Made by a program: the position numbers and the translations under genes. The notes beneath the pieces were generated by a model that saw only the letters and a list, made by a program, of their open reading frames with translations, did not search any database and was not told the origin of the DNA. This document shows, piece after piece, positions 9,170 through 37,153 of a DNA stretch of 37,959 nucleotides. The DNA lies in contig JAEEOM010000003.1 in the NCBI GenBank assembly GCA_016284265.1, forward strand, positions 1 through 37,959, given 5' to 3'. Every line of letters starts with the position of its first letter. Position 1 is the stretch's first letter. This DNA is from Bacteroidales bacterium (lineage in GTDB: Bacteria > Bacteroidota > Bacteroidia > Bacteroidales > UBA932).

Positions 9170-11568
9170 AAGGTAGATTTTTATGGAAGGTCGCCGCGGG
9201 GATCGCGGCGATTCTTGTCGTGTCGGCGGTTGATGCCGCTGCACAGAAGTACACGGTCAGTGGTTATCTGACCGACGCTGCGTCGGGCGAATCGCTGATC
9301 AGTGCCGCTCTGGTGGACCGTACGTCCGGCCAGGGAACGGTGAGCAACAACTACGGTTACTATACGCTGACGCTCCCCGCCGGGGAACATTCATTCGAAT
9401 ACTCATACATGGGTTATGAGACAGTGACGATGTCTCTCCCTCTTACGCGTGATACGGTGATCCATGTGGCCCTCAAGCCATCGGCGGAGTTCCTGCAAGG
9501 CGCTTCCGTGACGGCCTCCCGTTCTGAGACCGGCGTTCGCGGTACCCAGATGAGTGCCATCGAGATACCGGTCCACCAGATCCAACGGGTCCCGGCTCTG
9601 GCCGGCGAGGTGGATGTCATCAAGGCCCTTCAGTTGCTGCCGGGCGTGCAGTCCGGAACCGAGGGCGCTGCCGGGATGTATGTCCGCGGCGGCGGTCCCG
9701 ATGAGAACCTGCTGCTGCTCGATGGTGTGCCGATCTATAATGTCAACCACATGATGGGCTTTTTCTCAGTGTTCAATGCCGACGCCATCAAGAACGTGAC
9801 GCTGTATAAGGGCAGTTTCCCGGCCCGTTTCGGCAGCCGGCTCTCCAGCGTCGTGGATATCCGCATGAAAGACGGGAACGACCAGGAATTCCATGGCAGC
9901 GCCTCGCTCGGCCTTTTGTCGGCCAAGGTCAACTTGGAAGGACCCATCATCAAGGGGAAGACCACGTTCAACCTGTCGGCGCGGCGAACCTACTACGATA
10001 TCCTCTCGCAACCGCTGATCGCGTATATCGTGGCACGCGAGGGCAATGACGGGGAAACGGGCACGGGCGGATATTATTTCTACGACGTGAATGCCAAGCT
10101 TACGCATACCTTCTCGAATCGCGACAAGCTCTACGTCAGCTATTATATGGGCGACGATGACGTGTATGCCCGGTACAGCAACCGGGACGAGGAGACGGAG
10201 GGCCGTTTCAAGATGGGTTGGCATTGGGGCAACATCGTGGGCTCGGTACGCTGGAACCATGTTTTCGGTCCCCGGCTGTTCGTCAATATAACCGTCAATT
10301 ATACGCAGTACAGGCATCGGCTGGACATCCGCGATACCGAGCGGTTGCGCAACACCCCGTCTGCGCCGGAGACGGAGATGTTCCTCGGCTACAACTCGCT
10401 GATCAACGACCTGTCGGCGGCGGCGGATTTTGAATTCCATCCGTCGCCTGTCCACGAGATCCGTTTCGGCGGCACCTATATCCGGCATGCATTCAAGCCT
10501 TCCGTCTCGACGATCCGCTACCGCGAAGGGACAGACCGGGACGCCGCCCTTGACACGACGTTCGGCGACCGGAATCTCTTTACGGGCGAAGCGGCCGCTT
10601 TTGTCGAAGACAACTGGTCGGTGACCCCCTGGCTGAAGTTGAACGCCGGTCTCCGGTATTCCCTTTACACGGCGGCGGGCTGCGCCTATCATGCGCTGGA
10701 GCCCCGCCTGAGCCTGCGGGCGCTGTTCACGGACGACTTTTCGTTCAAGGCCTCGTATTCCGAGATGAACCAGGCGGTCCATATGCTGAGCAACAGCGAC
10801 ATTTCCTTGCCGACCGATCTCTGGGTCCCCTCGACCGATCGGATTCCGCCGATGCGGTCCCGGCAGGCCGCAGCGGGGCTGTTCTACAGTCTCGGACAAG
10901 TGGACCTCTCGGTGGAGGGCTATTACAAGACGATGGACAACGTTCTGGAATACCGCGACGGCGCTTCGTTCTTCGGTTCTTCCACCGGCTGGGAAGAGAA
11001 AGTGGCCGTCGGTCGGGGTTGGGCGTACGGTGTGGAATTCCTGGCCCAGAAGAAGATCGGCAAGCTGAGCGGCTGGGTGGGATACACCTGGTCGAAAGCG
11101 ATGCGGAAGTTCGATCAGGAAGGGAATATCGTCAATTTCGGAGAGCCGTTCCCGGCCCGTTACGACCGCCGGCATGACCTGAGCGTCACAGCTTCTTACG
11201 CCTTCAGCAAACGCTTCGACTTGGCGGCGACCTTTGTGTATGGAACGGGCGTGTGCGGTTCGCTGGCGCTCCAGCGGGTTGCTGTCCCGTACTACAATGT
11301 CTTTCTGGACGGACGCTTCTCGGACCCGGTGCCGATGGATTACCTCGAAGGGCGGAACAACTACCGGCTGCCTTCCTACCAGCGGCTTGACCTGGGGGTG
11401 AACTTCCACCGCCAATGGCGCAACGGCAACCACCGGACCATCAGCGTAAGCGTCTACAATGCCTACAACCGGAAGAATCCCTTCATCGTGTATCGCAGCG
11501 GTTCGTCGCTCATGCAGCTGTCGATCTTCCCGGTCATGCCGTCGGTTTCGTATACGTTTTATTTTTAG
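9166..11568 (+). CDS. TonB-dependent outer-membrane receptor with CarboxypepD_reg-like domain
   Basis: An 800-aa outer-membrane protein. It has a signal peptide (residues 1-26, ending AAAQ), a carboxypeptidase-regulatory-like beta domain (about 27-105; GYLTDAASGESLISAALV), a plug domain (about 125-235; LPGVQSGTEGAAGMYVRGG, LLLLDGVPIYN), and a long beta-barrel ending in the aromatic SYTFYF. The plug/barrel type matches receptors paired with DUF4249 lipoproteins, and such a gene follows after 14 nt. The substrate is unknown; iron complexes or small organic ligands are possible and there is no SusD partner. Its ATG shares the ATGA of the tex stop. Confidence 0.92.
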   Translation: MKGRFLWKVAAGIAAILVVSAVDAAAQKYTVSGYLTDAASGESLISAALVDRTSGQGTVSNNYGYYTLTLPAGEHSFEYSYMGYETVTMSLPLTRDTVIHVALKPSAEFLQGASVTASRSETGVRGTQMSAIEIPVHQIQRVPALAGEVDVIKALQLLPGVQSGTEGAAGMYVRGGGPDENLLLLDGVPIYNVNHMMGFFSVFNADAIKNVTLYKGSFPARFGSRLSSVVDIRMKDGNDQEFHGSASLGLLSAKVNLEGPIIKGKTTFNLSARRTYYDILSQPLIAYIVAREGNDGETGTGGYYFYDVNAKLTHTFSNRDKLYVSYYMGDDDVYARYSNRDEETEGRFKMGWHWGNIVGSVRWNHVFGPRLFVNITVNYTQYRHRLDIRDTERLRNTPSAPETEMFLGYNSLINDLSAAADFEFHPSPVHEIRFGGTYIRHAFKPSVSTIRYREGTDRDAALDTTFGDRNLFTGEAAAFVEDNWSVTPWLKLNAGLRYSLYTAAGCAYHALEPRLSLRALFTDDFSFKASYSEMNQAVHMLSNSDISLPTDLWVPSTDRIPPMRSRQAAAGLFYSLGQVDLSVEGYYKTMDNVLEYRDGASFFGSSTGWEEKVAVGRGWAYGVEFLAQKKIGKLSGWVGYTWSKAMRKFDQEGNIVNFGEPFPARYDRRHDLSVTASYAFSKRFDLAATFVYGTGVCGSLALQRVAVPYYNVFLDGRFSDPVPMDYLEGRNNYRLPSYQRLDLGVNFHRQWRNGNHRTISVSVYNAYNRKNPFIVYRSGSSLMQLSIFPVMPSVSYTFYF

Positions 11569-11582
11569 TAGGAGGGCCTGTC

Positions 11583-12485
11583 ATGAAAAAGATTAACAAT
11601 CTGGTTTTTGGGGTCTGCTGGATGCTGCTCTCCGTGGTATCCGCCTGCGAGACGGAGATTGAATTCAACGGGGAAGAGCGTGTTCCGCGGCTGACGGTCT
11701 CGGTGGTCGCCGTCGCCGGCAGTCCGCTGACCGTTGACGTGTCCGCTTCGGTTTTCTTCCTGGACAGAGGCGACGAGGGATATACCGCGCCGCTCGATAC
11801 GGTGCAAGGCCGTGTACGGGTATTCGTGAACGGCAGCCAGACCGGTTTGGAAGCGGAGCGGTTGCCGGAAACGGGCCTTTTCGGCCTTCGCTATGGCTGT
11901 TCCTATAAGCCTGCGCCCGGCGACCGGATTCGCATCGAGGCTGCATTTCCCGGTCTGGACGCCGTCTCGGCCGAGACGCAGGTCCCGCTCATCCCCCGCT
12001 TCGAAGTGACTGCCGTGTCCCCGGACAACCACGAGCTGACCCTCCGCATCCAGGATGATGCCTCTTTCGAGAAATACTATTCCCTGCGGGTATTCAAAAC
12101 TTATGAAGATGAGAGTGGAGCCTATGACCTTCCGGTCATCTTTACCTCCAATGACGTGATCTTCCACAAGACATCGACGGGCTTGGCGGATCTGTTCGAC
12201 ATCGGTGGATCGGAGGACTGGCAGTCCGTGCAGTTGTTTTCCGACGCCCTGTTCAGGGGGAAGTCCTATACATTCAAAATCCGCGTACAGGACGATGAAC
12301 CCGTCTTCGTGGAGTTGGGAGCGGTTACCGACAGCTTCTACTGGTACGCGACATCGTTTGAAACATTGCGGGATCTGGGCGGTTTCACGCTGTTCGTCGA
12401 AGGGGTCCCGCTTTATTCCAATGTGTCGGGCGGTTATGGCGTCATCTGTGCTTCGGCTTACTCCTCCGTCAAGATAGAATGGTAA
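11583..12485 (+). CDS. DUF4249-type lipoprotein, receptor partner
   Basis: A 300-aa lipoprotein with the N-terminal hydrophobic segment MKKINNLVFGVCWMLLSVVS followed by a lipidation Cys at about 22. The mature domain is beta-rich (LTVSVVAVAGSPLTVDVSAS; YKPAPGDRIRIEA; VTAVSPDNHELTLRIQDD) and matches the general build of DUF4249 proteins, which regularly follow TonB-dependent receptors of this class in Bacteroidota. A cell-surface role in capturing or gating the receptor's substrate is inferred from this pairing. A good ribosome-binding site, TAGGAGGG, lies upstream. It closes the unit, since a fresh promoter follows. Confidence 0.82.
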   Translation: MKKINNLVFGVCWMLLSVVSACETEIEFNGEERVPRLTVSVVAVAGSPLTVDVSASVFFLDRGDEGYTAPLDTVQGRVRVFVNGSQTGLEAERLPETGLFGLRYGCSYKPAPGDRIRIEAAFPGLDAVSAETQVPLIPRFEVTAVSPDNHELTLRIQDDASFEKYYSLRVFKTYEDESGAYDLPVIFTSNDVIFHKTSTGLADLFDIGGSEDWQSVQLFSDALFRGKSYTFKIRVQDDEPVFVELGAVTDSFYWYATSFETLRDLGGFTLFVEGVPLYSNVSGGYGVICASAYSSVKIEW

Positions 12486-24444: not shown

Positions 24445-24480
24445 CAAAGTTAGATAAATACGCAAAAATTGCTAACTTTG
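24445..24480. promoter_or_regulatory. Divergent promoter pair with mirrored TAACTTTG boxes
   Basis: The minus-strand box (CAAAGTTA read on plus, 24445-24452) serves the membrane gene starting at 24437. The plus-strand box (TAACTTTG, 24473-24480) serves the lipoprotein gene starting at 24493. The two boxes are 20 nt apart and identical, so polymerase binding at one should exclude the other. Confidence 0.6.
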
Positions 24481-24492
24481 AAGCGAAGTAAA

Positions 24493-25089
24493 ATGATTCC
24501 CAAGGTGAAAAAATGGCTTTTTGCGGGCGTGCTCTGTCTGATGTTGCTCCCGGCCGGTTGCCGGCCTGAGGGCATCATCCCTCCCGCGGACATGGAGAAC
24601 CTTTTTGCCGAGTTCTATCTTGCCGACGCCTGCATTGAGACGATGAACAGTTCGGTCGGCAATGGACTCTTTTATCCGGATTCCGTGAGAGTCTATCAGC
24701 CGATCATCGAAAAGCAGGGATACTCGGAGGATGCGTTCCGCGAGTCGCTCGATTACTATCTCCACCGTCCTTCGGAAATGGTCAAGATTTTCAAGCATGT
24801 CCATGCCCGGCTGGAACTGGAGGCGGACCGTCCGGTAGAGAAACTCGATACGGAAGATGCAGAAGAAGAGGAAGCGCCGGACCAGGAAGAGGAAGAGACG
24901 GTGACGGAGAAAAAGCCTGTGAAAGAGGGGATTGAGCCGGAGATTGAGCGTGAGCCCGGCGACCTGCCGAAGGTGAAACCTGTACCGGAGCAGCTTCAAA
25001 AGGAAGAAAAGCCGGCCCCGAAACCGGCGAAAAAGCGGAAGCGAATGACCAAGTCGGATTTGAAACGGCTCGAGGAGGAGCTCAAATAG
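24493..25089 (+). CDS. DUF4296-type lipoprotein with charged C-terminal tail
   Basis: A 198-aa lipoprotein whose signal ends in LLPAGC (Cys at about 20). The domain that follows (PPADMENLFAEFYLADACIE; FYPDSVRVYQPIIEKQGYSE; LDYYLHRPSEMVKIF) matches DUF4296, a small helical family of Bacteroidota with no known role. The last 80 residues are a Glu/Lys/Pro-rich low-complexity tail that could span the periplasm or bind a partner. I chose ATG 24493 because the frame's earlier ATG at 24469 lies before the -7 box. It is the first gene of the long plus-strand run; dtd follows after 1 nt. Confidence 0.8.
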   Translation: MIPKVKKWLFAGVLCLMLLPAGCRPEGIIPPADMENLFAEFYLADACIETMNSSVGNGLFYPDSVRVYQPIIEKQGYSEDAFRESLDYYLHRPSEMVKIFKHVHARLELEADRPVEKLDTEDAEEEEAPDQEEEETVTEKKPVKEGIEPEIEREPGDLPKVKPVPEQLQKEEKPAPKPAKKRKRMTKSDLKRLEEELK

Positions 25090-25090
25090 C

Positions 25091-25543
25091 ATGCGTGTCG
25101 TCATCCAGCGGGTTTGTGAGGCTTCGGTCTCGATTGGCGGAAAATGCGTCTCTTCCATCGGGCGGGGGATGATGGTCCTCTGTGGATTCGAGGAAGCAGA
25201 CGGGGAGGAGGATCTGGACTGGACTGCCCGCAAGATTGCGGCCCTGCGCATCTTCGATGACGAAGCGGGCGTGATGAACCGCTCGGTCGTGGATGTGGGG
25301 CAGGAAATCCTGGTCGTGAGCCAGTTTACGCTGATGGCCTCCACCAAGAAGGGGAACCGTCCTTCGTACGTGAAAGCAGCCCGCCCCGAAACGGCCATCC
25401 CGCTTTATGAACGATTCAAAGACATGCTTGCCGGCCTGCTCGGCCGGCCGGTTCCCAGCGGCGTCTTCGGCGCCGAGATGCAGGTGGCGCTGGTCAACGA
25501 CGGTCCCGTCACGATCTGCATCGACAGCAAGAACAGAATATGA
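25091..25543 (+). CDS. dtd: D-aminoacyl-tRNA deacylase
   Basis: A 150-aa cytoplasmic DTD-type enzyme that hydrolyses D-aminoacyl-tRNA, such as D-Tyr-tRNA, and so protects translation from D-amino acids. The start MRVVIQRVCEASVSI and the two active-site motifs SQFTLMAST (about residues 77-85) and VNDGPVTI (near the C-terminus, corresponding to the NxGPVT motif with an extra Asp) are present. Length is normal. It overlaps the deoC start by 4 nt if the first ATG is used there. Confidence 0.95.
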   Translation: MRVVIQRVCEASVSIGGKCVSSIGRGMMVLCGFEEADGEEDLDWTARKIAALRIFDDEAGVMNRSVVDVGQEILVVSQFTLMASTKKGNRPSYVKAARPETAIPLYERFKDMLAGLLGRPVPSGVFGAEMQVALVNDGPVTICIDSKNRI

Positions 25544-26349
25544 TACATACTGATACGATGGAAAATAAGGAAATCTACAAGGCCGTCCTGGGGATGATCG
25601 ACCTGACCTCCCTCAATGGATCGGACACCTATTCCAAGATAGCGGCCATGACCGAAAAAGTCAACCGCTTCCACGATACGTTCCCGGACTATCCGCTGCC
25701 GGCTTCGATCTGCGTCTATCCCAACTTCGCAAAAACGGTGGCGCTTACGCGTGCTACAGACGAACTGCACGTGACGGTGGTCGGCGGCTGCTTCCCGGCA
25801 TCACAGAGTCCGTTGTCGGTGAAGGTGGCGGAATGCACGGCTGCTGTGGCCGACGGTGCCGATGAAGTGGACATTGTGCTGGCCCTCAATTCTTTCCTGG
25901 ACAACAACTATGAGGCGGCCCGGCAGGAGATCATCGAAATCGGTGCAGCCATCCGGGACATCCGCCCCGCTGTCCACCTGAAGGTGATTCTGGAGACCGG
26001 CGCTCTGCAGACGAAGAGTTTGATCGAAGATGCTTCGTTCCTGGCCATGGAAGCCGGAGCGGATTTTATCAAGACCTCTACCGGCAAGATGCAGCCGGCA
26101 GCCACGCCGGAGGCTGCGCAGATCATGTGCGAATGCATCCGGGAATACCACAACAGGACAGGCCGCATGGTGGGCTTCAAACCCGCGGGCGGCATTGCTA
26201 CACCCGAAGATGCCGTGACCTATTGGAACATCGTATCGGAAACACTGGGCGAAGCTTGGCTGGACAAGCGCTATTTCCGCTTTGGCGCCAGCCGCATGGC
26301 CAATAACCTGCTTTCAGCCCTGGAAGAACGGGAGATCAAGTATTACTAA
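25540..26349 (+). CDS. deoC: Deoxyribose-phosphate aldolase
   Basis: A class I aldolase of 269 aa (263 from the alternative ATG at 25558) that splits 2-deoxyribose 5-phosphate into glyceraldehyde 3-phosphate and acetaldehyde, the last step of deoxynucleoside breakdown. The Schiff-base lysine lies in DFIKTSTGKM and a second conserved lysine in VGFKPAGGI. ICVYPNFAKTVALT and VLETGALQTKSLI fit the DeoC barrel. The first ATG makes an ATGA overlap with dtd; neither candidate start has a strong ribosome-binding site. The amidohydrolase gene follows after 1 nt, giving a nucleoside-salvage pair. Confidence 0.94.
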   Translation: MIHTDTMENKEIYKAVLGMIDLTSLNGSDTYSKIAAMTEKVNRFHDTFPDYPLPASICVYPNFAKTVALTRATDELHVTVVGGCFPASQSPLSVKVAECTAAVADGADEVDIVLALNSFLDNNYEAARQEIIEIGAAIRDIRPAVHLKVILETGALQTKSLIEDASFLAMEAGADFIKTSTGKMQPAATPEAAQIMCECIREYHNRTGRMVGFKPAGGIATPEDAVTYWNIVSETLGEAWLDKRYFRFGASRMANNLLSALEEREIKYY

Positions 26350-26350
26350 G

Positions 26351-27547
26351 ATGGGAAGCCTGCTGATCAAGAACGTCCTGCTGGACGGGAAGAAGACCGA
26401 TATCCTGATTGAGGGGAACCGCTTCGGCTCCCTGGCTGCTCCGGCCGGAACGGTAGCGGATACGGTGCTTGAAGCGGAAGGGATGGCCATCCTTCCTCCG
26501 TTCTATAATACGCATACGCATGCCGCGATGAGCCTGCTCCGCGGTTATGCCGATGACATGCCGTTGCAGAAATGGCTGACAGATTACATCTGGCCCTTTG
26601 AAAACAAAATGACGCGGCAGGATATCCGCGAGGGGTCACGCCTGGCTGTCCGGGAGATGATCCGCACGGGCAGCGTCTTTTTCTCTGACATGTACTTCGA
26701 CATCGAAGAGACGATCGAAGTGGTGCAGGAATACGGAATGCGGGCTGCCATCGGTGTGACGTTCGTGGAGTCACACTCCAAGTCCCAGCAGTCTGAAAAA
26801 CTGGATATGCTCCGTCACTGGGTCGATCCGACCGGTGGTTTGATCAGCCTGACCGTCGCGCCGCACGCCATCTATACAGTGGGTCCCGACCTGCTGGTCA
26901 AGTGCGCCGAGACGGCGCGTACGCTCGGGATGAAGATTCACATACACATCTCCGAAACCCGGCATGAAGTGGACGATTGCGTGCGGGAGCATGGCACCAC
27001 GCCGGTCCGCTATCTGGACAGCCTGGGCTTTCTCGGCCCGGACGTCATTGCGGCGCACGTCGTCCATGTGGATGAGGAAGAGGCAGCCATTCTGGCCCGC
27101 CGCGGCGTGACGATTTCACACTGTCCCTGTTCGAACATGAAACTGGCTTCCGGCACTTTCCCTTATCAGATGCTCCGCGCAGCGGGCTGCCGGATCACGC
27201 TCGGGACGGACGGGGATTCCTCCAACAACAACCTCGACATGCGTGAGGAGATGAAATTCGCCGCGTTGCTCGCCAAGTCAACCAGCGGCAATCCCGAAAC
27301 GATGCCTGCCGGTGAAGCACTGGCGATGGCTACGCGCAACGGCGCCGAAGCTTTCGGCATTGATGCCGGCGAAATCCGGGAAGGGATGTTGGCCGACGCC
27401 TTGCTGATCCGGCTCGACGACGAACGGATGCAGCCCTGCCACAACCTGGTTTCCAACTGGGTCTATGCAGCTGGCAGCAGTTGTATAGACACGGTTCTCT
27501 GCAACGGCCGGATCCTGATGAAAGACCGCATCATCCTCTCTGAATAA
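26351..27547 (+). CDS. Amidohydrolase, SAH/MTA deaminase-like
   Basis: A 398-aa metal-dependent hydrolase of the MtaD/SsnA branch. Metal-binding motifs are NTHTHAAM (His55, His57), IHIHISE, AAHVVHVDEEE and LGTDGDSSNNNLDM. The family deaminates S-adenosylhomocysteine, 5'-methylthioadenosine or adenosine to the inosyl form, though related members act on other amines, so the substrate should be treated as probable only. It follows deoC by 1 nt and precedes the alarmone-synthetase-like gene by 11 nt. This places purine nucleoside turnover directly before a nucleotide-signalling block. Confidence 0.87.
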   Translation: MGSLLIKNVLLDGKKTDILIEGNRFGSLAAPAGTVADTVLEAEGMAILPPFYNTHTHAAMSLLRGYADDMPLQKWLTDYIWPFENKMTRQDIREGSRLAVREMIRTGSVFFSDMYFDIEETIEVVQEYGMRAAIGVTFVESHSKSQQSEKLDMLRHWVDPTGGLISLTVAPHAIYTVGPDLLVKCAETARTLGMKIHIHISETRHEVDDCVREHGTTPVRYLDSLGFLGPDVIAAHVVHVDEEEAAILARRGVTISHCPCSNMKLASGTFPYQMLRAAGCRITLGTDGDSSNNNLDMREEMKFAALLAKSTSGNPETMPAGEALAMATRNGAEAFGIDAGEIREGMLADALLIRLDDERMQPCHNLVSNWVYAAGSSCIDTVLCNGRILMKDRIILSE

Positions 27548-27558: not shown

Positions 27559-28656
27559 ATGGGCAAAAACTTACAAGAATACGGCCTGGACATGCACGGC
27601 ACGATGATCCTGGAAGAGTTTCGGGAGATGCTTCCTGTCTTTTCCCAGATGAAATCCATCGTGCTTGAGAAACTGGACGGTTGCCTGCAACGGGCGGGGC
27701 TGGTGGTTTCGGGTGTCGAGGCGCGGGTCAAAGATGAAGCCAGCCTGGCCGGAAAGCTGGAGCTCAAGGGACAGAAATACAAGACGCTCTCCGATATCAC
27801 CGACATCGTGGGTGCCCGCGTGATTACGTTCTACAGTGACGAAGTCGATAAAATCGCCGCTTTGGTGGACAATACCTTCGAGGTGGACTGGGAAAATTCG
27901 GTGGACAAGCGCAAACTGTTGGGCAATGATACTTTCGGCTATCTGTCGCTACACTATATCTGCCGGATTCCTGAGTCCCTGTACCACGATCCTGCTTGTC
28001 CCGAACTGAATCAGTACCGGTTCGAGATCCAGATGCGGACGGCCCTGCAGCATGTCTGGGCCAACATGAACCACGATACGGGATACAAGAGCGGTTTCGA
28101 GGTTCCGAAAGAATACATCCGGAGCCTGACCCGCCTGGCGGGCCTGCTGGAACTGGCGGACGACGAGTTCAGCCGCATCCGCAAGGACTTGACCGATTAC
28201 CGCCGCAAAATGGAGCAGCTGGTCAAGGACGGAAGCTTCGACGAGGTCTCCCTCAATGCCGATACGTTCCGCAGTTACCTGGCGCTCGACCCCTTCGCAT
28301 CGCTCAACGCGAAGATTGCGGCCATCAACCAGGCCGAGGTGCAGCAACTCAGCGGTATGCCTTACCTGGAACCGATGCGGCTCATAGGGCTCCAGACGCT
28401 GGGCGATGTGGAGCGGATGCGCAAATCCTGTTCGGAGAAAGCCTATCAGCTGGCTCTTCACCAGATCAGTGGAACCGACCTCGACATCATCGCTTCCACG
28501 CTCGGCCTGCAGAATGTCTGTCTGGCCTATGCGGGTGAAAAGGGCGGTGAAAAAGGCATTGAATTCTTTCTGAATTATCTGAACGGTCCTTCTCGTTATA
28601 ACGCCGCGACGGCCAGGAAACTCTATCAACAACTCTGCAAGATTCATGACATGTAA
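27559..28656 (+). CDS. RelA/SpoT synthetase-domain protein (alarmone synthetase-like)
   Basis: A 365-aa cytoplasmic protein. Its first 180 residues carry the RelA/SpoT nucleotidyl-pyrophosphokinase fold: ARVKDEASLAGKL (Arg56, Lys58), ITDIVGARVITFY, FGYLSLHYICR (127-135; Leu where many have Arg or Gln) and FEIQMRTALQHVWANMNHDT with the catalytic Glu at 156. The rest is a mostly helical domain of unknown role that lacks TGS or ACT features. The likely reaction is transfer of pyrophosphate from ATP to GDP/GTP or a related nucleotide; the acceptor cannot be predicted. It has no hydrolase domain, but an HD hydrolase is encoded 2 nt downstream. Confidence 0.85.
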   Translation: MGKNLQEYGLDMHGTMILEEFREMLPVFSQMKSIVLEKLDGCLQRAGLVVSGVEARVKDEASLAGKLELKGQKYKTLSDITDIVGARVITFYSDEVDKIAALVDNTFEVDWENSVDKRKLLGNDTFGYLSLHYICRIPESLYHDPACPELNQYRFEIQMRTALQHVWANMNHDTGYKSGFEVPKEYIRSLTRLAGLLELADDEFSRIRKDLTDYRRKMEQLVKDGSFDEVSLNADTFRSYLALDPFASLNAKIAAINQAEVQQLSGMPYLEPMRLIGLQTLGDVERMRKSCSEKAYQLALHQISGTDLDIIASTLGLQNVCLAYAGEKGGEKGIEFFLNYLNGPSRYNAATARKLYQQLCKIHDM

Positions 28657-28658
28657 CC

Positions 28659-30071
28659 ATGGCAAATTCTTTCATCGACAGTACTCTGCTTGACAAGGCC
28701 ATCGTCTTTGCCGTTCAGGCTCACCACAATACGGAGCGCCGTGGAAAAGGGTTCCCGTATATCGTCCATCCGCTGGAAGCGGTGGCTGTCGTGGCCACCC
28801 TCTCTTCCGACCAGGAACTGCTGGCGGCGGCTGCGCTCCACGATGTAGTCGAGGATACGTCGATCACACTGGATCAGCTGCGACGGGAATTCGGCGATAA
28901 GGTGGCGTTCCTGGTGGAACAGGAAAGCGACAAGTTTGTTCCGGAGCGCAGCGAGTCCGACAGTTGGCGCGACCGCAAACAGGGTGCCATTGACCGGCTG
29001 GCAGCTGCACCGTACGAAGCAAAGATCGTCGCGTTGGGCGACAAGCTCTCCAACATGCGCGCCATTGCCCGTGATTACGACGACATGGGCGACAAACTTT
29101 GGGAGCGTTTTCACGCACCCGGTGGCCGTGTGGATCATGAATGGCATTACCGGGGCCTGGCACAGTCGCTGAGTGATCTGGCCGGCACGCATGCTTATAC
29201 GGAATTTACTCAATTGATTGAACATGTCTTCGGCAAACCCCGGCCGGAGTTGATCGATCTGAATGACTATGAAGTGAGTGGTGATGGCTATACGGCGATC
29301 AGTTACAACCACAAGGACGGGAAACGGATGATGAAGCTCTATGCGGAGTATATGCCGGTTTCCGTGCCGGAGCAGGAACTGAAGATGTCCTGGTCCATCA
29401 TGGACCTCGGCTTGCACATCCCTCGGGCTTACCGGTTGGTGACAGACGGGAAACGGGTGGGGGTCGAATTCGAACGGATTACCCGCAAACGCTCTTTTGC
29501 CCGCGCCATCTCGCAGGAGCCGGAACGGCTGGATGAATATACGGCCGAGTTCGCCAGACAGTGCCTGAAACTCCATGCTACGCCGTGCAATTCGGAGGTG
29601 TTCCCTTCCGTCAAGGATCATTTCCACGGAGTCATCGAAGCTTCCCATGATTTCGACGATGCCCAGAAAGCCCGTTTGCAAGCCTTCGTGGACCAAGCCC
29701 CCGACGCCACAACCTGCCTGCACGGTGATATGCACATCGGCAATATCATTACCGACGGCAAGCAGACCTGGTGGATTGACCTGGCTGATTTCCGCTACGG
29801 ACATCCTTTCTTTGACCTGGGGATGCTCTATTTCGTGTGCATCTCCAATCCGAGCGATGCATTGGCGGACCAGCTTTTTCATGTAACGCATGCCCAGATG
29901 ATGCGGGTCTGGGAAGTGTTCGTACAAACATACTTCGGCCCGGAGGCTGACCTGCAGGAAATCAACCGGCAGATTCAGCCCTATGCTGCCTTGTACATGA
30001 TTCATTTTGCCAACCGGGAGTCGATGCTTCCGCATTGGCGTACCGATATTGAAAGAATGCTGCTCCGGTAA
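28659..30071 (+). CDS. Mesh1-like HD hydrolase fused to APH-type phosphotransferase
   Basis: A 470-aa two-domain protein. Residues 1-190 are a RelA/SpoT-type HD domain: AVQAHHNTERRGKGFPYIVH, the AALHDVVEDT motif (His61-Asp62, Glu65-Asp66) and ALGDKLSNMRAI, the pattern of small alarmone hydrolases. Residues about 205-470 have an aminoglycoside phosphotransferase/choline kinase fold: CLHGDMHIGNI (catalytic Asp at 357) and WWIDLADF (Asp374), close in style to the TIGR02172 phosphotransferases. So one protein may remove a 3'-pyrophosphate and phosphorylate an unknown substrate. The frame is continuous with no sign of a sequencing join. Confidence 0.82.
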   Translation: MANSFIDSTLLDKAIVFAVQAHHNTERRGKGFPYIVHPLEAVAVVATLSSDQELLAAAALHDVVEDTSITLDQLRREFGDKVAFLVEQESDKFVPERSESDSWRDRKQGAIDRLAAAPYEAKIVALGDKLSNMRAIARDYDDMGDKLWERFHAPGGRVDHEWHYRGLAQSLSDLAGTHAYTEFTQLIEHVFGKPRPELIDLNDYEVSGDGYTAISYNHKDGKRMMKLYAEYMPVSVPEQELKMSWSIMDLGLHIPRAYRLVTDGKRVGVEFERITRKRSFARAISQEPERLDEYTAEFARQCLKLHATPCNSEVFPSVKDHFHGVIEASHDFDDAQKARLQAFVDQAPDATTCLHGDMHIGNIITDGKQTWWIDLADFRYGHPFFDLGMLYFVCISNPSDALADQLFHVTHAQMMRVWEVFVQTYFGPEADLQEINRQIQPYAALYMIHFANRESMLPHWRTDIERMLLR

Positions 30072-30072
30072 G

Positions 30073-31377
30073 ATGCATTACATTTTTGTCATTAACGGAC
30101 GGGACGACAAGTCCTTCATCGCCCAAGACGTAGAGAGGCAGATCGCAGAAGCCGGTTCCAGGCTGGACTATGAGATTTACCGGACCACGGGGGTGGGGGA
30201 CGGAACGCGTTTCGTACGGATCTATTGTGACCTGCACCCCCGGATTGAATGCTGCTTCGTCGCTTGCGGCGGAAGCGGAACGTTCATTGAGGTCGCGTCC
30301 GGGTTGGTAGGCTTCTCCAAAAAGTACCTGAGCGTTCTTTCCTACGGGCTGACGAACGATTTCATCAAATGCTATCCGGACAGGGATTTTCATTCGCTTC
30401 CCAAGTTGCTGGCCGGTACCCCGCGGCCGGTGGACATCATGCGGGTCAATGACAACTATGCCATCAATGTCATCAACGTCGGGTTTGAGGCGGTAGTCGC
30501 TTCCCGGGTCTATGACCTGGAGGCTTCCGGCAAGACCAGACATGCGGTCACAAGAGGAATCGGGTATGCCCTCTTGTTCGGAAAACGCAACCGGATCCGG
30601 GTCATCGCCGACGGGGAACGCATGAACCGGCGCAATTTGTTTCTCTGCTCAATGTCGAACGGGCGCTGGGTGGCCGGGAAGTATTTGTGTGCACCGGATG
30701 CGGACCCGGAAGACGGCCTGATCGAGTTCAGCATCGTACGTCGGATGAGCCCGCTTACCTTGTTGCGCGTTCTGCCGCTTTACGAGCGGGGCGAGCAGTT
30801 TACGCGTAATCCGGGAAAACGGAAATTCATCCACCGGCGTGTGCGCAGCGTACAACTCCGCTCCCGGGACCTGATTGACATCTGTCTGGACGGGGAGATC
30901 CTCTCCGGCCATTCTTTCGACATCGAAATATTACACCATTCCATTCAATTGATCCTTCCATCCCTCGTATCCATGAAAAAAAGATTTGAACCCATCGTCG
31001 ACAAATGTGGCGAGATTGTCGATTATCTCATGTCCTCGCCTGATATTCCGCAGGATGAAGCCCTGCAGTTCAAGATCCGTCTCTCCATCGAGGAGGCAGT
31101 GGAGAATGTGGTCCGCTATGCCTATGACGGCGGTTTGGGATGGATCGAGGTCGGTACGGAACTCGATCCGGAAGGCGTCATGCTGACCATCCTGCTCAAG
31201 GATGCCGGAGTCCCTTTCAATCCGCTTGAAAAAGAAGATCCCGACATCACCCAGTCTGTGGAGGACCGGGAGATTGGTGGGCTGGGTATCTTCTTGTGCA
31301 AGAAACTGATGGACCGTATCGAATACAAGTACGAGGATGGGTGCAACATCCTCATCATGACCAAGCGAGTCGCCTGA
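30073..31377 (+). CDS. Diacylglycerol-kinase-like domain fused to RsbW-type anti-sigma ATPase
   Basis: A 434-aa fusion. Residues 1-295 align by eye with lipid kinases of the DgkB/YegS group: an N-terminal VINGRDD strand, GGSGTFIEVASGL (66-78), YGLTNDF, an INVGFEA strand, APDADPEDGLIEF and a C-terminal CLDGEIL. The normal GGDGT Asp is Ser68, so kinase activity is doubtful. Residues about 300-434 are a GHKL histidine-kinase-like ATPase as in RsbW/SpoIIAB: N-box EEAVENVVRYAY (Asn345), DAGVPF (Asp377) and GGLGIFL (402-408). An internal ATG at 30973 could give a free ATPase. It lies 1 nt after the HD-APH gene. Confidence 0.82.
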   Translation: MHYIFVINGRDDKSFIAQDVERQIAEAGSRLDYEIYRTTGVGDGTRFVRIYCDLHPRIECCFVACGGSGTFIEVASGLVGFSKKYLSVLSYGLTNDFIKCYPDRDFHSLPKLLAGTPRPVDIMRVNDNYAINVINVGFEAVVASRVYDLEASGKTRHAVTRGIGYALLFGKRNRIRVIADGERMNRRNLFLCSMSNGRWVAGKYLCAPDADPEDGLIEFSIVRRMSPLTLLRVLPLYERGEQFTRNPGKRKFIHRRVRSVQLRSRDLIDICLDGEILSGHSFDIEILHHSIQLILPSLVSMKKRFEPIVDKCGEIVDYLMSSPDIPQDEALQFKIRLSIEEAVENVVRYAYDGGLGWIEVGTELDPEGVMLTILLKDAGVPFNPLEKEDPDITQSVEDREIGGLGIFLCKKLMDRIEYKYEDGCNILIMTKRVA

Positions 31378-31384
31378 TCCCGCC

Positions 31385-33289
31385 ATGCCGCTTCACAGCC
31401 AATCAATAGCCCGACGGCTCAGCCGGTATGTCTTGTTGATCTCTGCCGGTATGCTGCTGTTCACCACCATTCTGATGGGCATCTTCGGCCGTCGTGCAAT
31501 CATCAGGATCACGACCGAAGTGGCCGAGAAGGAGGTCGATCTGGTCGCCGGGAACATCGACATGCTGATTTCCGAGGTAGAACTGGCCGTGGGCAATGTG
31601 GACTGGTTTGTCCAGCGGGGTGGCATGCGGGAGCAATTCATGTACGATGCGACGAGAGAACTGGTCATGTCCAACCCGAGTATCATTGGCAGTGCAGTCG
31701 CCTTCGAGCCCTATTATTTCCAGGGACGGCGTTGGTTTGCACCCTATTCCTACATCGAAAAACAGACCGGGGAGATGCATACGATCCAGATGGGTAACGC
31801 TGATTACGATTATCCGACGATGGACTGGTACCGGGTCCCCAAGTTGTTTGACCGGCCGGTGTGGAGTGAACCCTATTTCGACGAGGGCGGCGGTAGCCGG
31901 CGGATGGCGACTTATTCGTTGCCGCTCAAGGATACGACCGGTACTTTTTTCGGCATCCTTACATCGGATATTTCCTTGGAAGGTATGTCCAACCGGTTGA
32001 AGAGAATTACTCCCTATTGGGATTCATACGCAGTGCTTGTCAGTGCGAGGGGAACTTATATCGTTCATCCCGACAGTTCCATGGTCCTCAAACATTCCAT
32101 CTTCGACACCGTTTCGCAAATGAGCGACACCACGGCCCTGACCATCGCCCAGAACATGCTCAACAGCAAGAAAGGATCGGTCCGTTTCCACGGGAACAGG
32201 AATGAAGATTATTTCGGCGTGTACCGGCCGATCAGCAACGGATGGTCGATCCTGCTGGTCAATTCGTACGATTCGGTGTTCCATTATCTGTCTATCTTCA
32301 ACGTGATCATGGCGATCATGGCAATTCTCGGACTGATCGGGCTGTATGTCGGATGCCGTAACGTCATCCGGCGCCAGATGATGCCCATTGTGGAATTCAC
32401 CCAGGTGTCGATGACCATGGCCAAGGGCAATTTCAAGGCCCGTCTGCCCGAAGTGAAGCGGGGGGAAGAACTGCAGAAGTTGCGCGATTCGATGGCCTTC
32501 ATGCAACAGTCCATCCGCGAGTACATCGCCGAACTGAAGACCACGACGGCGTCCAACGAACGTTATGAGAGCGAATTGACCATTGCCCGGGACATCCAGA
32601 TGAGCATGTTGCCGCAGAACTTCCCGAATCATCCCGGCTGTGACCTCTACGCAATGGTGCAGCCGGCCAAGGAGGTGGGCGGCGACCTGTACGATTTCAT
32701 CGACGTGGGAGACCGGGTCTTCTTCCTGGTGGGCGACGTCTCCGGGAAAGGTGTCCCGGCCGCGTTATTCATGGCCATAACGCGGGCGGCCTTCCGTTTC
32801 ATCGGCGCTTTGGGCCTGCCGATCAACGAAGTGGTCCGCCGGGTGAACGACTGCCTCTGCGACGGAAACACGAATGAGATGTTCGTTACGCTCTTTGCCG
32901 GCTGCCTCAATACCTCCACCGGCGTCATGGAGTTCTGCAATGCGGGCCACAACCCTATCGTTATCGTCGCACCGGACGGTTCGGCATCGTTCTTGCGTGC
33001 GAAGCCCAACCTGGCGGCCGGCCTGTTTGAACGTTTTCCTTATGAAGCCGAGCAGATCCGACTGGAACACGGTTCTCGTCTGATCGTCTATACGGATGGC
33101 GTGACGGAGGCCGAACGTGCCGACAAGACGCAGTTCGGTGAACAGGCGTTGCTGGACTGGGCCAGGAAGATGAACCCTTCGGTCTCGGCCAAAGCCTCGA
33201 CCCTCGACCTGTATGCCCGGGTCCGTCACTTTACCGGCGATGCGGAGCAGAACGACGACATCACGATCATGTCAATCTTATTGAAATAA
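31385..33289 (+). CDS. Membrane sensor PP2C phosphatase (Cache-HAMP-SpoIIE/RsbU)
   Basis: A 634-aa inner-membrane protein. It has an N-terminal transmembrane helix (about 15-37), a periplasmic dCache-like sensor of about 260 residues (AFEPYYFQGRRWFAPYSY; YDYPTMDWYRVPKL; SYAVLVSARGTYIVHP), a second helix (about 305-325), a HAMP segment (PIVEFTQVSMTMAKGNFKAR) and a short coiled linker with ARDIQMSMLPQ. The PP2C domain follows, with KEVGGDLYDF (Asp434), LVGDVSGKGVPAALFM (Asp451), YTDGVTEAE and DDITIMSI. It should dephosphorylate the STAS protein encoded next. The sensed ligand is unknown; Cache domains often bind amino acids, organic acids or purines. Confidence 0.92.
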   Translation: MPLHSQSIARRLSRYVLLISAGMLLFTTILMGIFGRRAIIRITTEVAEKEVDLVAGNIDMLISEVELAVGNVDWFVQRGGMREQFMYDATRELVMSNPSIIGSAVAFEPYYFQGRRWFAPYSYIEKQTGEMHTIQMGNADYDYPTMDWYRVPKLFDRPVWSEPYFDEGGGSRRMATYSLPLKDTTGTFFGILTSDISLEGMSNRLKRITPYWDSYAVLVSARGTYIVHPDSSMVLKHSIFDTVSQMSDTTALTIAQNMLNSKKGSVRFHGNRNEDYFGVYRPISNGWSILLVNSYDSVFHYLSIFNVIMAIMAILGLIGLYVGCRNVIRRQMMPIVEFTQVSMTMAKGNFKARLPEVKRGEELQKLRDSMAFMQQSIREYIAELKTTTASNERYESELTIARDIQMSMLPQNFPNHPGCDLYAMVQPAKEVGGDLYDFIDVGDRVFFLVGDVSGKGVPAALFMAITRAAFRFIGALGLPINEVVRRVNDCLCDGNTNEMFVTLFAGCLNTSTGVMEFCNAGHNPIVIVAPDGSASFLRAKPNLAAGLFERFPYEAEQIRLEHGSRLIVYTDGVTEAERADKTQFGEQALLDWARKMNPSVSAKASTLDLYARVRHFTGDAEQNDDITIMSILLK

Positions 33290-33310
33290 TAATATAATGC
33301 AAGATAAAAA

Positions 33311-33613
33311 ATGAACGTAACAATCACAGAAGAAGGCGCAAAGGCGCTCGTCAAACTTGAAGGAAGGCTCGATACCACCAACGCCGACCAGTTCATGAAA
33401 GACATCACGCCGCTGATGAACGGAACGCACGAGGAGATCGACGTGGACTGCACGGACATGGAGTACACCAGCAGCCAGGGGCTCCGCATGTTCCTGATGC
33501 TGCAGAAGAACGTTTCGGCACGCAGGGCGAAGCTGGTGTTGCGGAACATGAAACCGCATGTGAAAGAAGTATTCGACATTACGGGTTTCTCGCACATTAT
33601 CAATATCGTATAG
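33311..33613 (+). CDS. STAS-domain anti-sigma factor antagonist
   Basis: A 100-aa single STAS domain of the RsbV/SpoIIAA type. EGRLDTTNADQFMKDI forms the first conserved part, and MEYTSSQGLRMFLMLQK holds the phosphorylatable serine position (Ser54 or Ser55). In partner switching the unphosphorylated form binds the anti-sigma ATPase; the kinase is expected to be the ATPase two genes upstream and the phosphatase the gene 21 nt before. No sigma factor gene is present in the window. A weak hairpin (AGCCC/GGGCT, 33616-33628) follows. Confidence 0.92.
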   Translation: MNVTITEEGAKALVKLEGRLDTTNADQFMKDITPLMNGTHEEIDVDCTDMEYTSSQGLRMFLMLQKNVSARRAKLVLRNMKPHVKEVFDITGFSHIINIV

Positions 33614-33688
33614 TGGAGCCCGGCGGGCTGTTGATAATTGGTTGAAAAAGTCTGACGGGACAGGGAGCGATTTTTTGCAGGGTTGATG

Positions 33689-33696
33689 TATCTTTG
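33689..33696 (+). promoter_or_regulatory. -7 box (TATCTTTG) for the nucleobase transport genes
   Basis: A consensus TAnnTTTG box ends 16 nt before the ATG at 33713, separating the transport genes from the signalling block. No convincing -33 element at normal spacing was found. Confidence 0.6.
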
Positions 33697-33712
33697 TAGA
33701 AAATCTCTTACT

Positions 33713-35071
33713 ATGTCCACGACAAACAATCAAGCTATCTACGACGCCCGGACGCTGGGAAAGCCCAAGATGGCGCTTCTCGGCTTGCAGCATCTGTTTG
33801 CCATGTTCGGCGCCACCGTCCTGGTGCCAGTAATTACAGGGTTGTCGGTCTCGGCGACCCTTCTTTTTGCCGGTCTGGGTACCCTGATCTTCCACATGCT
33901 GACCCGTTGGAAAGTACCTGCTTTCCTGGGATCCTCCTTTGCCTTCCTCGGCGGATACGCCGCCGTGACCCAGATGGGGGCTGAGCAGGGGCTTTCGCTG
34001 GCCCAGTCGCTGCCGTACGCCTGCATCGGCGTTGTCTGCGCCGGTCTGATGTATTTCATCCTGGCGGGGCTTTTCGCCGCCTTCGGACCCCAGAAAGTCA
34101 TGCGTTTCTTCCCGCCGGTGGTTACCGGACCGATCATTATCGCCATTGGTCTGACCCTCTCGGGTTCCGCCATTACCAATTGCAATACCAACTGGTGGAT
34201 CGCCCTGCTGGCCATCGCCATCATCATCGTGTGCAACATCTGGGGAAAGGGCATGATCAAGATCGTTCCGATCCTGCTCGGTGTGCTGGGTTCCTATATC
34301 GTGGCTGCCTGCTTTGGTCTGTGCGATTTCAGCGGCGTGAAGGACGCTGCCTGGCTTGGATTGCCGTTCAAGATGCAGAATACCGCTTTCGCCGTGTTCC
34401 AGTCACCGAACTGGGGCCTGATCGTGGCGGCCATCATCGCCATCCTGCCGATCTCGCTGGCTACGATGGTCGAGCATATCGGTGACATGTGCGCCATTTC
34501 TTCGACGACAGGTGAGAATTATCTGGCGCATCCGGGTCTGCACCGTACCCTCATGGGCGACGGTCTGGCTACCATTTTGGCGTCGCTTTTCGGTGCTCCG
34601 GCCAATACTACTTACGGTGAGAATACCGGCGTGCTCAACCTCACCCGCGTCTTTGACCCGCGCGTGATCCGTATTGCCGCTTGCTTCGCCATCCTCCTGA
34701 GCTTCTGCCCGAAGTTTGCCGCGTTGATCAGCGCGATGCCCGCTTCCACGATCGGCGGCGTCAGCCTCGTGCTCTACGGTATGATTTCCGCGGTCGGTGT
34801 CCGCAACCTGGTGGAGAACCGCGTGGACCTCACGGAATCGCGCAACGTCATTATCACGGCCTTGATCCTGGTGCTGGCCATCGGTATCAAGTATGGCGCG
34901 AACGACGCCATCTCCATCGGCTTCACTTCGCTCAGCGGCCTGGCCGTGGCCGCCCTTGTGGGCATCATCCTGAACGCTGTGCTTCCGGGCAACACCTATG
35001 AGTTCCCCAACGGAGAAGGCGACGTCTCCGTCAACTTCGGCGGTACGCACAAACCCAAGAGAAAAAACTAA
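33713..35071 (+). CDS. uraA: Uracil permease-type NCS2 transporter
   Basis: A 452-aa inner-membrane nucleobase:cation symporter of the NAT/NCS2 family. Features include LLGLQHLFAMFGATVLVPVI at the N-terminus, the SFAFLGGYAAV segment, MVEHIGDMCAISSTTG with the conserved substrate-site Glu region in the middle, and APANTTYGENTGVLNLTRVF, which matches the UraA/PyrP consensus including the QH-type first motif. It imports uracil with protons. ATG 33713 keeps the promoter outside the gene. The Tsx-like outer-membrane gene follows after 15 nt, pointing to a joint uptake route. Confidence 0.93.
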   Translation: MSTTNNQAIYDARTLGKPKMALLGLQHLFAMFGATVLVPVITGLSVSATLLFAGLGTLIFHMLTRWKVPAFLGSSFAFLGGYAAVTQMGAEQGLSLAQSLPYACIGVVCAGLMYFILAGLFAAFGPQKVMRFFPPVVTGPIIIAIGLTLSGSAITNCNTNWWIALLAIAIIIVCNIWGKGMIKIVPILLGVLGSYIVAACFGLCDFSGVKDAAWLGLPFKMQNTAFAVFQSPNWGLIVAAIIAILPISLATMVEHIGDMCAISSTTGENYLAHPGLHRTLMGDGLATILASLFGAPANTTYGENTGVLNLTRVFDPRVIRIAACFAILLSFCPKFAALISAMPASTIGGVSLVLYGMISAVGVRNLVENRVDLTESRNVIITALILVLAIGIKYGANDAISIGFTSLSGLAVAALVGIILNAVLPGNTYEFPNGEGDVSVNFGGTHKPKRKN

Positions 35072-35086
35072 AACCTTCATGAACAT

Positions 35087-35794
35087 ATGAAAAAACTGAT
35101 TCTTTCTGCAGCCGTGCTGCTCTGTGCTCTGACCGCTTTCGGCCAGACGAACTTCCAGACCTTCTATGATTTCGGTCGCAAGCATTTCACCACGACCCTC
35201 GAAGGTTTCCACACCGACAACTGGGGCAATACGTTCTTCTTCATCGATTACGATTACAACAATCGGGACGGGAATGCCATCATTTCTCCCAGCAACACGT
35301 ATTTTGAGATTGCACGTTGCTTCAATTTCTGGCAGAACAGCACGCTCGCTCCCCTGAGCCTCCAGGTGGAGTACAACGGCGGCTTCGGAATGGCATCCAA
35401 CACGCCCTCCTACGGGGCTGGCCTCGCATTCCCTGTCAACAGCGCTTTCCTTTTCGGCGTGGATTATTTCCTGCACAGCGGTGACTTCAAGAATACGCTC
35501 AACTTCAAGCTCCTGTACAAGCAGTTCATCCACCTCTACTCGCAGGTTCCGCTCCAGTTTACGACGGTTTGGGGTTGCCAGGATCTCTTTGGTGCGCCGG
35601 GCCTCCGGTTCTCGGGCTTCCTGGATGTCTGGTGCGAAGGCCGCAGCACGGTGGTGCTCTCCGAACCGCAGATCTGGTACAGTTTCGGCACCGAGCATTT
35701 CAATCTCGGCGGCGAGGTGGAACTCAGCTATAATTTCGCCGGCATGAGTGGTTTCCATATCCTGCCTTGTCTCGGTATGAAATGGGTCTTCTGA
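35087..35794 (+). CDS. DUF5020/Tsx-like outer-membrane protein
   Basis: A 235-aa outer-membrane barrel with signal peptide MKKLILSAAVLLCALTAFG and a mature start QTNFQTFYDFGRKHFTTTLE. Alternating beta strands rich in Phe, Tyr and Trp run to a C-terminal aromatic residue (LGMKWVF). The sequence resembles DUF5020 proteins, which are related to the nucleoside-specific channel Tsx. Its place between a uracil and a purine permease supports a role in letting nucleosides or nucleobases through the outer membrane; this is inference from family and context. Confidence 0.83.
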   Translation: MKKLILSAAVLLCALTAFGQTNFQTFYDFGRKHFTTTLEGFHTDNWGNTFFFIDYDYNNRDGNAIISPSNTYFEIARCFNFWQNSTLAPLSLQVEYNGGFGMASNTPSYGAGLAFPVNSAFLFGVDYFLHSGDFKNTLNFKLLYKQFIHLYSQVPLQFTTVWGCQDLFGAPGLRFSGFLDVWCEGRSTVVLSEPQIWYSFGTEHFNLGGEVELSYNFAGMSGFHILPCLGMKWVF

Positions 35795-35830
35795 TACCTG
35801 CCTGAACCATCATAAACTTTTCCATACACT

Positions 35831-37153
35831 ATGAGTAATTTCCTGACCAAAGCTTTTGGCTTCAACCCGGAAAAGCACACCGTCCGTACGGAGCTCGTGG
35901 CAGGTCTGACGACCTTCCTGACGATGGCCTATATTCTGGCCGTCAACCCGAATATCTTCAGTGCGCTGCCGGGTATGCCTGCGGGCAGTGTCTTTACCGC
36001 GACGGCCCTGGCCGCCATTATCGCCACACTGGTCATGGCCTTCTGGGCCAAGAAACCGTTTGCCCTGGCTCCGGGTATGGGCCTGAACGCCTTCTTCGTA
36101 TTCACGGTCTGCCTGACGATGGGTCACACTTGGCAGTTCGCCTTGACGGCGGTGCTGATTGAAGGCCTGATCTTCGTCGTCCTGACACTGACGAAAGTCC
36201 GTACCTGGATCCTGAATGCGATTCCACTCAGCCTGAAGCATGCCATCGGCGCCGGTATCGGCCTGTTCATCGCCTTCATCGGTCTGCAGAATGCCGGCCT
36301 GATCGTCAACAACGACGCCACGCTCGTGGCGCTCGGCGATGTGTGCCACGGCACCGGCCTGCTGGCCGTCATCGGTCTGATCATCTCCTGCACGCTGGTG
36401 ATGCTGCACGTTCGCGGCGGTATCCTGATCGGCATCCTCGTGACGGCCATCATCGGCCTGTTCATCAAGGATCCGGCCACGGGCGAGGCCATCACGCACT
36501 TCACGGGTGTCGTGTCGCTGCCCGACAGTGTCGCTCCGATCGCCTTCCAATTCCAGTGGGGTGAAATCTTTACCTGGGACATGCTGGCCGTCGTGTTCAC
36601 CTTCCTGTTCATCGATATGTTCGATACGATGGGTACGGTGATTGGCGTTTCGCAGAAGGCTGGTTTCGTCGATGAGAAAGGTAACATCCAGGATGCCGAG
36701 AAGGTGTTCCTGGCCGACTCCATCGGTACGATTGCCGGTGCCTGCCTGGGTACCTCCACCACAACGACGTATGTTGAGAGCTCCGCTGGTGTCGGTGCGG
36801 GCGGCCGCACGGGCCTGACGGCCTTCTCCGTGGCCGTGCTCTTCGCCGTCGCGCTCTTCTTCTCGCCGGTGTTCCTGGGTATCCCCGGTGCGGCCACCGC
36901 TCCGGCTCTGATCATCGTCGGTATGATGATGATGAACCCGGTCCGCGAAATCGACTGGTCCAACTATCGCGAAGCCATCCCCGCTTTCCTGACGCTGATC
37001 CTCATGCCGCTGGCCTACAGCATTTCCGACGGTATCCTCATCGGTGTGATCTCCTATGTAATCCTCTATGCCCTTACCGGCAAGGCCAAACAGATCACCC
37101 CTACGATGTGGGTCCTCGCCGTGCTCTTCATCCTCCGGTATATTTTCATCTAG
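35831..37153 (+). CDS. NCS2 purine permease (adenine/guanine/hypoxanthine)
   Basis: A 440-aa inner-membrane transporter of the AzgA/PbuG/GhxP branch. Diagnostic parts are FGFNPEKHTVRTELVAGLTT at the start, TMAYILAVNP, LAPGMGLNAFFVFTVC, FLFIDMFDTMGTVIGV and STTTTYVESSAGVGAGGRTG. It should import purine bases with protons; which base is preferred cannot be read from the sequence. It follows the Tsx-like gene by 36 nt and is terminated by the hairpin at 37202-37230. Together the three genes form a nucleobase uptake unit. Confidence 0.93.
   Translation: MSNFLTKAFGFNPEKHTVRTELVAGLTTFLTMAYILAVNPNIFSALPGMPAGSVFTATALAAIIATLVMAFWAKKPFALAPGMGLNAFFVFTVCLTMGHTWQFALTAVLIEGLIFVVLTLTKVRTWILNAIPLSLKHAIGAGIGLFIAFIGLQNAGLIVNNDATLVALGDVCHGTGLLAVIGLIISCTLVMLHVRGGILIGILVTAIIGLFIKDPATGEAITHFTGVVSLPDSVAPIAFQFQWGEIFTWDMLAVVFTFLFIDMFDTMGTVIGVSQKAGFVDEKGNIQDAEKVFLADSIGTIAGACLGTSTTTTYVESSAGVGAGGRTGLTAFSVAVLFAVALFFSPVFLGIPGAATAPALIIVGMMMMNPVREIDWSNYREAIPAFLTLILMPLAYSISDGILIGVISYVILYALTGKAKQITPTMWVLAVLFILRYIFI

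Follow-up and report, generated by a model that had tools for sequence, protein, structure and literature searches.

In Pseudomonas aeruginosa, the small protein SiaC, when unphosphorylated, binds and activates the diguanylate cyclase SiaD, according to the available part of the published account (PMC8457831). The available part of a second paper reports that HsbA, an anti-anti-sigma protein of the STAS type from the same species, interacts with the diguanylate cyclase HsbD (PMC5085249). A 2011 survey, in the part available, lists no small alarmone synthetase (SAS) in its Bacteroidia row (PMC3153485). Here, we analyzed the first 37,959 nucleotides of contig JAEEOM010000003.1 from a Bacteroidales bacterium (hereafter the window), in which positions 27559–33613 encode a small alarmone synthetase together with the phosphatase, kinase, and STAS protein of a partner switch. 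This cluster is real and conserved, and its best reading is that of a partner switch whose outputs include the alarmone synthetase. Phospho-switch control is known for diguanylate cyclases; we know of none for alarmone synthetases.

The cluster comprises five open reading frames (ORFs) on the same strand, and the ORF reading of the window confirms the gene order and the intergenic gaps of 2, 1, 7, and 21 nt reported in a first-pass annotation of this DNA. The five genes are as follows.

27559..28656, + strand: small alarmone synthetase (hereafter SYN), with RelA_SpoT at residues 56–179 (Pfam) and an extra C-terminal part at about residues 184–363
28659..30071, + strand: HD_4 (SpoT/Mesh1-type) hydrolase fused to an APH-type kinase (TIGR02172), from Pfam, NCBIfam, and residues
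30073..31377, + strand: DAGK/YegS-like domain (GGSGT) fused to an RsbW-type ATPase, from Pfam, an AlphaFold model, and Foldseek
31385..33289, + strand: Cache-HAMP-PP2C (RsbU-type) membrane phosphatase, from Pfam and the PP2C Asp residues
33311..33613, + strand: STAS protein (RsbV-type) with the SSxGL serine, from Pfam and a serine survey

Pfam also bore out the domains named in that annotation, the HAMP domain of the phosphatase being matched weakly (0.0021, under the cut-off). The mechanical start of the third ORF is a TTG at 30007, and its first ATG, at 30073, is most likely the translation start of the DAGK–RsbW protein. A promoter and terminator scan gave numbers close to the shuffled expectation (8 against a mean of 6.8; 15 against a mean of 11.2). 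The host assembly totals 2.4 Mb over 206 contigs at 88% completeness. A different contig carries a long RelA/SpoT-type ORF (672 aa), and a partial match sits where a contig ends, so SYN is an additional alarmone enzyme.

Linkage of the synthetase and the partner switch

A scan with a SYN alignment (A1), taking one genome per species, yielded at least 570 relatives, of which the best 80 (loci L068–L147) were read; being chosen by score, these lean to close relatives, and many of their contigs are short. By title they are Bacteroidota metagenome-assembled genomes (MAGs), many from ruminant or horse samples, except for two Akkermansia, one Lachnospiraceae, and one “bacterium P3.” On the same strand and no farther than 8 kb from SYN, HD was found in 67 of the 80 loci, STAS in 66, RSBW (the RsbW-type ATPase) in 64, PP2C in 53, APH in 43, DAGK in 11, and NMT1 in 8. 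The first-pass annotation had proposed such a neighborhood check, with rare adjacency counting against the cluster; the genes proved to be recurrently linked. Of the 43 loci whose contigs extend 8 kb in both directions, 30 have all three switch genes (PP2C, RSBW, and STAS), 38 have at least one, and five have none. STAS lies directly upstream of SYN in 33 of the 80 loci, and L094 and L142 carry STAS–SYN without RSBW or PP2C within the stretch read.

Gene orders differ widely and include SYN-HD-APH-PP2C-RSBW-STAS, PP2C-RSBW-STAS-SYN-HD, RSBW-PP2C-STAS-SYN-HD-APH, HD-APH-PP2C-RSBW-STAS-SYN, SYN-HD-RSBW-STAS, and the order of the window. Because the linkage survives so many arrangements, the association of these genes is not due to chance, and the idea of chance neighbors was rejected.

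Within the genus of the window, SYN was found in 30 of 40 genomes. The 37 genomes that were also searched with the DAGK–RSBW protein (G429–G431 being left out) comprise 29 with both SYN and RSBW, two with RSBW only (G025 and G035), six with neither, and none with SYN only (Fisher p = 1.2e-5, kinship not corrected). Of the 29 genomes with both, 27 have a switch gene close to SYN; the exceptions are G009, in which no switch gene is near SYN, and G015, in which the genes are divided between two contigs, both ending inside the cluster. G009 and G825 have identical coordinates and are probably one genome.

Two genomes of the genus, G006 and G020, have a split cluster. SYN keeps STAS alone, starting 1 nt past the SYN stop codon (L169 and L170), and RSBW, NMT1, and Cache-PP2C stand together on another contig (L037 and L038). 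The sole other STAS match in each of these genomes lies in an ORF of 577 or 652 aa, which is probably a transporter, and each genome has one HATPase_c_2 match over the cut-off. Across the 16 genome handles examined, STAS was over the cut-off in all and HATPase_c_2 in 15; G822, the genome of L142, has no HATPase_c_2 match over the cut-off. Because it is STAS that most often stays with SYN in reduced clusters, the data suggest an arrow from the switch to the synthetase, opposite to one from alarmone to STAS.

Draws of genomes from higher ranks showed that the family is sparse. It was found in nine of 393 genomes of the order (E ≤ 1e-40) and in four of 395 genomes of the phylum (E ≤ 1e-30), the own genome being counted in both and the other three phylum matches being much weaker; the idea that the system is common throughout Bacteroidota was rejected on these numbers. 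The eight other order-level loci belong to other families, and six of them have the switch beside SYN.

Further genes were seen around these clusters. The full DAGK–RSBW fusion occurs in 15 of the 37 genus genomes, the genus-type loci around it being preceded by mtaD and deoC and followed by two NCS2 permeases. In the window, the upstream flank (24469–27547) holds DUF4296, dtd, deoC, and an mtaD-like amidohydrolase, and the downstream flank (33683–37153) holds two NCS2 nucleobase permeases; both are conserved in genus-type loci, a hint of purine metabolism. Inside or beside the cluster lies a gene of the tyrosine phosphatase family (Y_phosphatase3, 7.2e-61, at L118:9197-9985), which was seen by eye also in L130, L034, L036, L078, L098, and L099. 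In L134, a cytidylate-kinase-like gene (11071-11715; PF13189, 1.3e-45) lies between SYN and HD.

Domains and conserved residues

Conserved residues were counted in loci L068–L147 for domains long enough to score. The three components of the switch all retain the motifs of a partner switch. The phosphatase matches MCP-like_PDC_1 (8.1e-27) or dCache_1 (4e-13) and SpoIIE (PP2C; 1.6e-47) in Pfam, and its PP2C Asp and Gly residues are conserved in 55 of 55 relatives; the RSBW motif residues are conserved in 67 of 67. The STAS protein (STAS, 7.1e-16) has an SSxGL serine, which is present in 68 of 68 relatives and was seen also in a motif survey of 108 STAS matches.

SYN has a single Pfam domain (RelA_SpoT, 8.4e-16) and is a stand-alone synthetase, with its catalytic residues present and no HD, TGS, or ACT in the same protein. 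The key residues are kept in 80 of 80 loci, except for Arg160 and His172 (79 of 80 each). In an AlphaFold model built from a 30-row alignment (predicted local distance difference test, pLDDT, 86; predicted template modeling score, pTM, 0.58), the catalytic part matches Bacillus subtilis SAS1 (5dec_A) in Foldseek, with a target template modeling score of 0.85 over approximately 200 aligned columns. Among the matches listed, the nearest solved folds are the alarmone synthetases SAS1 and SAS2 rather than CapRel, which aligns over the full length but with a root mean square deviation above 21 Å. The C-terminal part, of about 180 residues, is predicted to be mostly helical and has no separate match among the 50 solved structures listed by Foldseek; since the pTM is modest, the placement of the two parts relative to each other is uncertain. 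Six SYN ORFs longer than 405 aa (L096, L101, L103, L106, L135, and L137) were inspected as candidate fusions to STAS or RSBW and rejected, as they look like upstream frame extensions.

The second protein of the cluster matches HD_4 (2.9e-19) and APH (4.5e-11) in Pfam, and its APH part scores above the NCBIfam TIGR02172 cut-off (243.7 vs 228.2 bits). The metal and catalytic residues of HD_4 are intact, each of the seven being kept in 65 of 65 relatives, and the APH catalytic residues are kept in 53 of 53, one further motif position being His in 24 and Gln in 29.

The third protein matches DAGK_cat (2.3e-8), YegS_C (2e-12), and HATPase_c_2 (5.7e-20). Its AlphaFold model (15-row alignment; pLDDT 87, pTM 0.76) is matched by Foldseek to DgkB/YegS and then, lower in the list, to SpoIIAB/RsbW, with the DAGK fold kept. 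The lipid-kinase-like domain of the first-pass annotation is thus present, but its motif reads GGSGT in place of GGDGT, and Ser or Thr replaces the Asp in all 16 distinct DAGK–RsbW fusions (21 copies plus L061, minus records of the same contig reached twice), none of which has the lipid-kinase motif. Free-standing DAGK genes keep the Asp in L044, L067, L097, L098, L099, and L105 and have it replaced in L062, L064, L066, L084, and L100.

The fusions to APH and DAGK are details of particular lineages. Downstream of SYN, HD stands alone in 35 of the 80 loci and is fused to APH in 21, and neither the DAGK nor the HD–APH fusion could be retained as the core of the system, both being lineage-limited. 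A gene for an NMT1/THI5-like periplasmic protein lies between the ATPase and phosphatase genes in 10 of the 15 DAGK–RsbW fusion loci (window counted), the window being one of the five without it. At L048:4811-5779, this gene (PF09084, 1.1e-29) has the ATPase (or DAGK) gene on one side and the Cache-PP2C gene on the other; it occupies the same place in L050, L051, L037, L038, and L066.

Proposed control of the synthetase and its alternatives

We put at roughly even the chance that the partner switch gates the alarmone synthetase directly, through binding of STAS to SYN. We infer each biochemical step of this route, including the ligand, the STAS–SYN contact and its sign, and the nucleotide made. 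The Cache domain of the phosphatase would respond to a periplasmic ligand, with the help of an NMT1-like binding protein in many relatives; the phosphatase, of the RsbU type, would dephosphorylate STAS, and the RsbW-type kinase would rephosphorylate it with ATP. Unphosphorylated STAS would bind SYN, perhaps at the extra C-terminal part, and turn alarmone synthesis on (turning it off is less likely), and the HD hydrolase would reset the alarmone level. The DAGK domain, its motif Asp lost, would be a regulatory part and the APH kinase an accessory. The broader proposal, in which an outside ligand would lead to a (p)ppGpp-type alarmone through direct STAS–synthetase binding, bypassing the ribosome and transcription and carrying phospho-protein control of messenger synthases over from cyclic di-GMP to alarmones, falls slightly short of an even chance. 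If true, a membrane sensor would control alarmone production directly through a phospho-switch, and a role for partner switches in bacteria without SigB-type sigma factors would be suggested.

Several observations weigh against direct gating. SYN has no switch nearby in four of the 43 full-flank loci (L087, L111, L123, and L126), the fifth locus without a same-strand switch (L084) having one on the opposite strand, and two of the eight order-level loci (L161 and L162, one genus) have SYN–HD only. No SYN–STAS fusion was found among the loci read, and the split-cluster genomes G006 and G020 are MAGs (88% and 96% complete). Distance correlations (no tree correction, paralogues not separated) are 0.85 to 0.87 among the switch parts, vs 0.75 for SYN with PP2C, 0.60 with RSBW, 0.52 with STAS, 0.51 with HD, and 0.48 with APH, and those of HD or APH with RSBW or STAS are 0.11 to 0.31. 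Judged by these values, which single out no STAS–SYN pair, the switch is one evolutionary unit to which SYN is tied more loosely. In addition, switch-only loci without SYN occur in the genus (L039, L040, L043, L045, and L066, the last with DAGK), showing that the switch serves further outputs, and extracytoplasmic function (ECF) and RpoD sigma factors are possible targets. In L043 (6932-9025) and L045 (9278-11374), the switch-only Cache-PP2C–RSBW genes stand beside giant ORFs that by eye resemble non-ribosomal peptide synthetases, possibly another output.

RsbW/RsbV sets classically control sigma factors, and transcription could be what the switch regulates, by way of an ECF or RpoD-type sigma factor, with the alarmone enzymes as co-transcribed, parallel stress genes. 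We consider this unlikely. The switch had been annotated as complete, which holds for its RsbU, RsbV, and RsbW types but not for a sigma factor of the SigB/F/G type: none exceeded the TIGR02980 cut-off in the 40 genus genomes, in a test whose control passes in one of 14 genomes. Sigma matches below the cut-off occur in 39 of the 40 genomes (best approximately 119 bits, probably RpoD), and the existence of switch-only loci fits such a role, as does a weak sigma-factor-like match (G009:C55:3516-3803, a 162-aa ORF) about 1.5 kb from a switch-only RSBW–STAS pair (G009:C55:1397-2066). Co-transcription alone, however, accounts neither for the retention of STAS alone with SYN in the two split genomes nor for linkage across many gene orders.

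Less probable still is the model of the first-pass annotation, in which the alarmone and a periplasmic signal jointly set the phosphorylation of STAS; the alarmone sensor would then be the DAGK domain or the ATPase. A DAGK fold that is kept while its GGDGT Asp is lost in every fusion is what conversion to a nucleotide sensor might give, but a domain near SYN in only 11 of 80 loci cannot provide the link in general. The sequences showed no alarmone site on the switch, nor any sign that the alarmone level sets STAS phosphorylation, and the retention of STAS with SYN suggests the opposite arrow.

A switch-controlled toxin resembling the toxic small alarmone synthetases (toxSAS), with HD as antitoxin and growth arrest or phage defense as outcome, is very unlikely. 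HD is directly downstream of SYN, alone or fused, in 56 of the 80 loci, and PADLOC gives a partial match of SYN to the candidate defense protein PDC-S33 (E 1.6e-14, limited to the synthetase region), but of the 43 full-flank loci 35 have a same-strand HD within 8 kb and eight lack one, the surroundings of the locus are constant within the genus, and SAS1/SAS2, not CapRel, are the nearest listed folds.

We give equally little weight to a nutrient-uptake cluster, in which transporters would be the chief target of the switch, with feedback from the alarmone enzymes on amino acid or purine uptake: an amino-acid-type ABC transporter adjoins the switch in L039, L040, and L066, adjoins SYN in the switch-less L123, L126, L161, and L162, and occurs in L100 and L105, and two NCS2 permeases flank the cluster in the genus, but this ABC transporter was found in only four of the 80 SYN loci, far fewer than switch genes, and NCS2 neighbors were confined to loci of the genus type seen in the window.

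Some amino-acid-type ABC transporter ATPases that adjoin switch genes or SYN are extended at the C terminus by about 110 residues (L066:7114-8220, L040:11822-12949, L039:5547-6674, L123:8898-9992, L126:8894-9979, and L161:10344-11429). The extension was considered as an RsbW-like domain and rejected, one of the six (L066) showing weak resemblance (E 3e-5) and Pfam giving no support for L066, L123, or L040.

Comparison with described systems

The first-pass annotation knew of no described system that combines a partner switch, alarmone enzymes, APH, and DAGK. Such a combination does exist and recurs. The literature searched, most subscription papers lying outside its scope, yielded no description of a partner switch linked to alarmone enzymes; provisionally, the combination is apparently undescribed.

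Like RsbUVW and SpoIIAA-AB-E, the cluster has a PP2C phosphatase, a HATPase kinase, and a STAS protein with conserved motifs, the RsbW part resembling SpoIIAB/RsbW; unlike them, it is linked to alarmone enzymes and lacks a SigB/F/G factor over the cut-off in the genus. SYN shares the synthetase fold and residues of RelQ/RelP (SAS1/SAS2) but has its additional C-terminal part. In toxSAS–antitoxin systems of the FaRel type, synthetase and hydrolase genes form adjacent pairs, as they do in the window; here, a partner switch is attached, and HD is missing near some SYN genes.

Direct gating of SYN is likened to SiaC–SiaD and HsbA–HsbD because the small protein there binds a second-messenger synthase. 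HsbA–HsbD, as described in the part of the paper available (PMC5085249), likewise pairs a STAS-type protein with a messenger synthase, whereas the messenger and the upstream pathway differ and the interaction in the window cluster is predicted. SiaABCD, in the available part of its description (PMC8457831), places a phosphatase, a kinase, and a small phospho-protein in one gene set with a nucleotide second-messenger synthase, as the window does. The SiaA model matches the window phosphatase at 2.1e-16 and 59.6 bits, well under its cut-off of 700, and Pfam gave no GGDEF match in the five cluster proteins. The output of SiaABCD is a diguanylate cyclase, whereas the window cluster has a RelA_SpoT synthetase, to which STAS would bind, and adds a hydrolase and an APH kinase.

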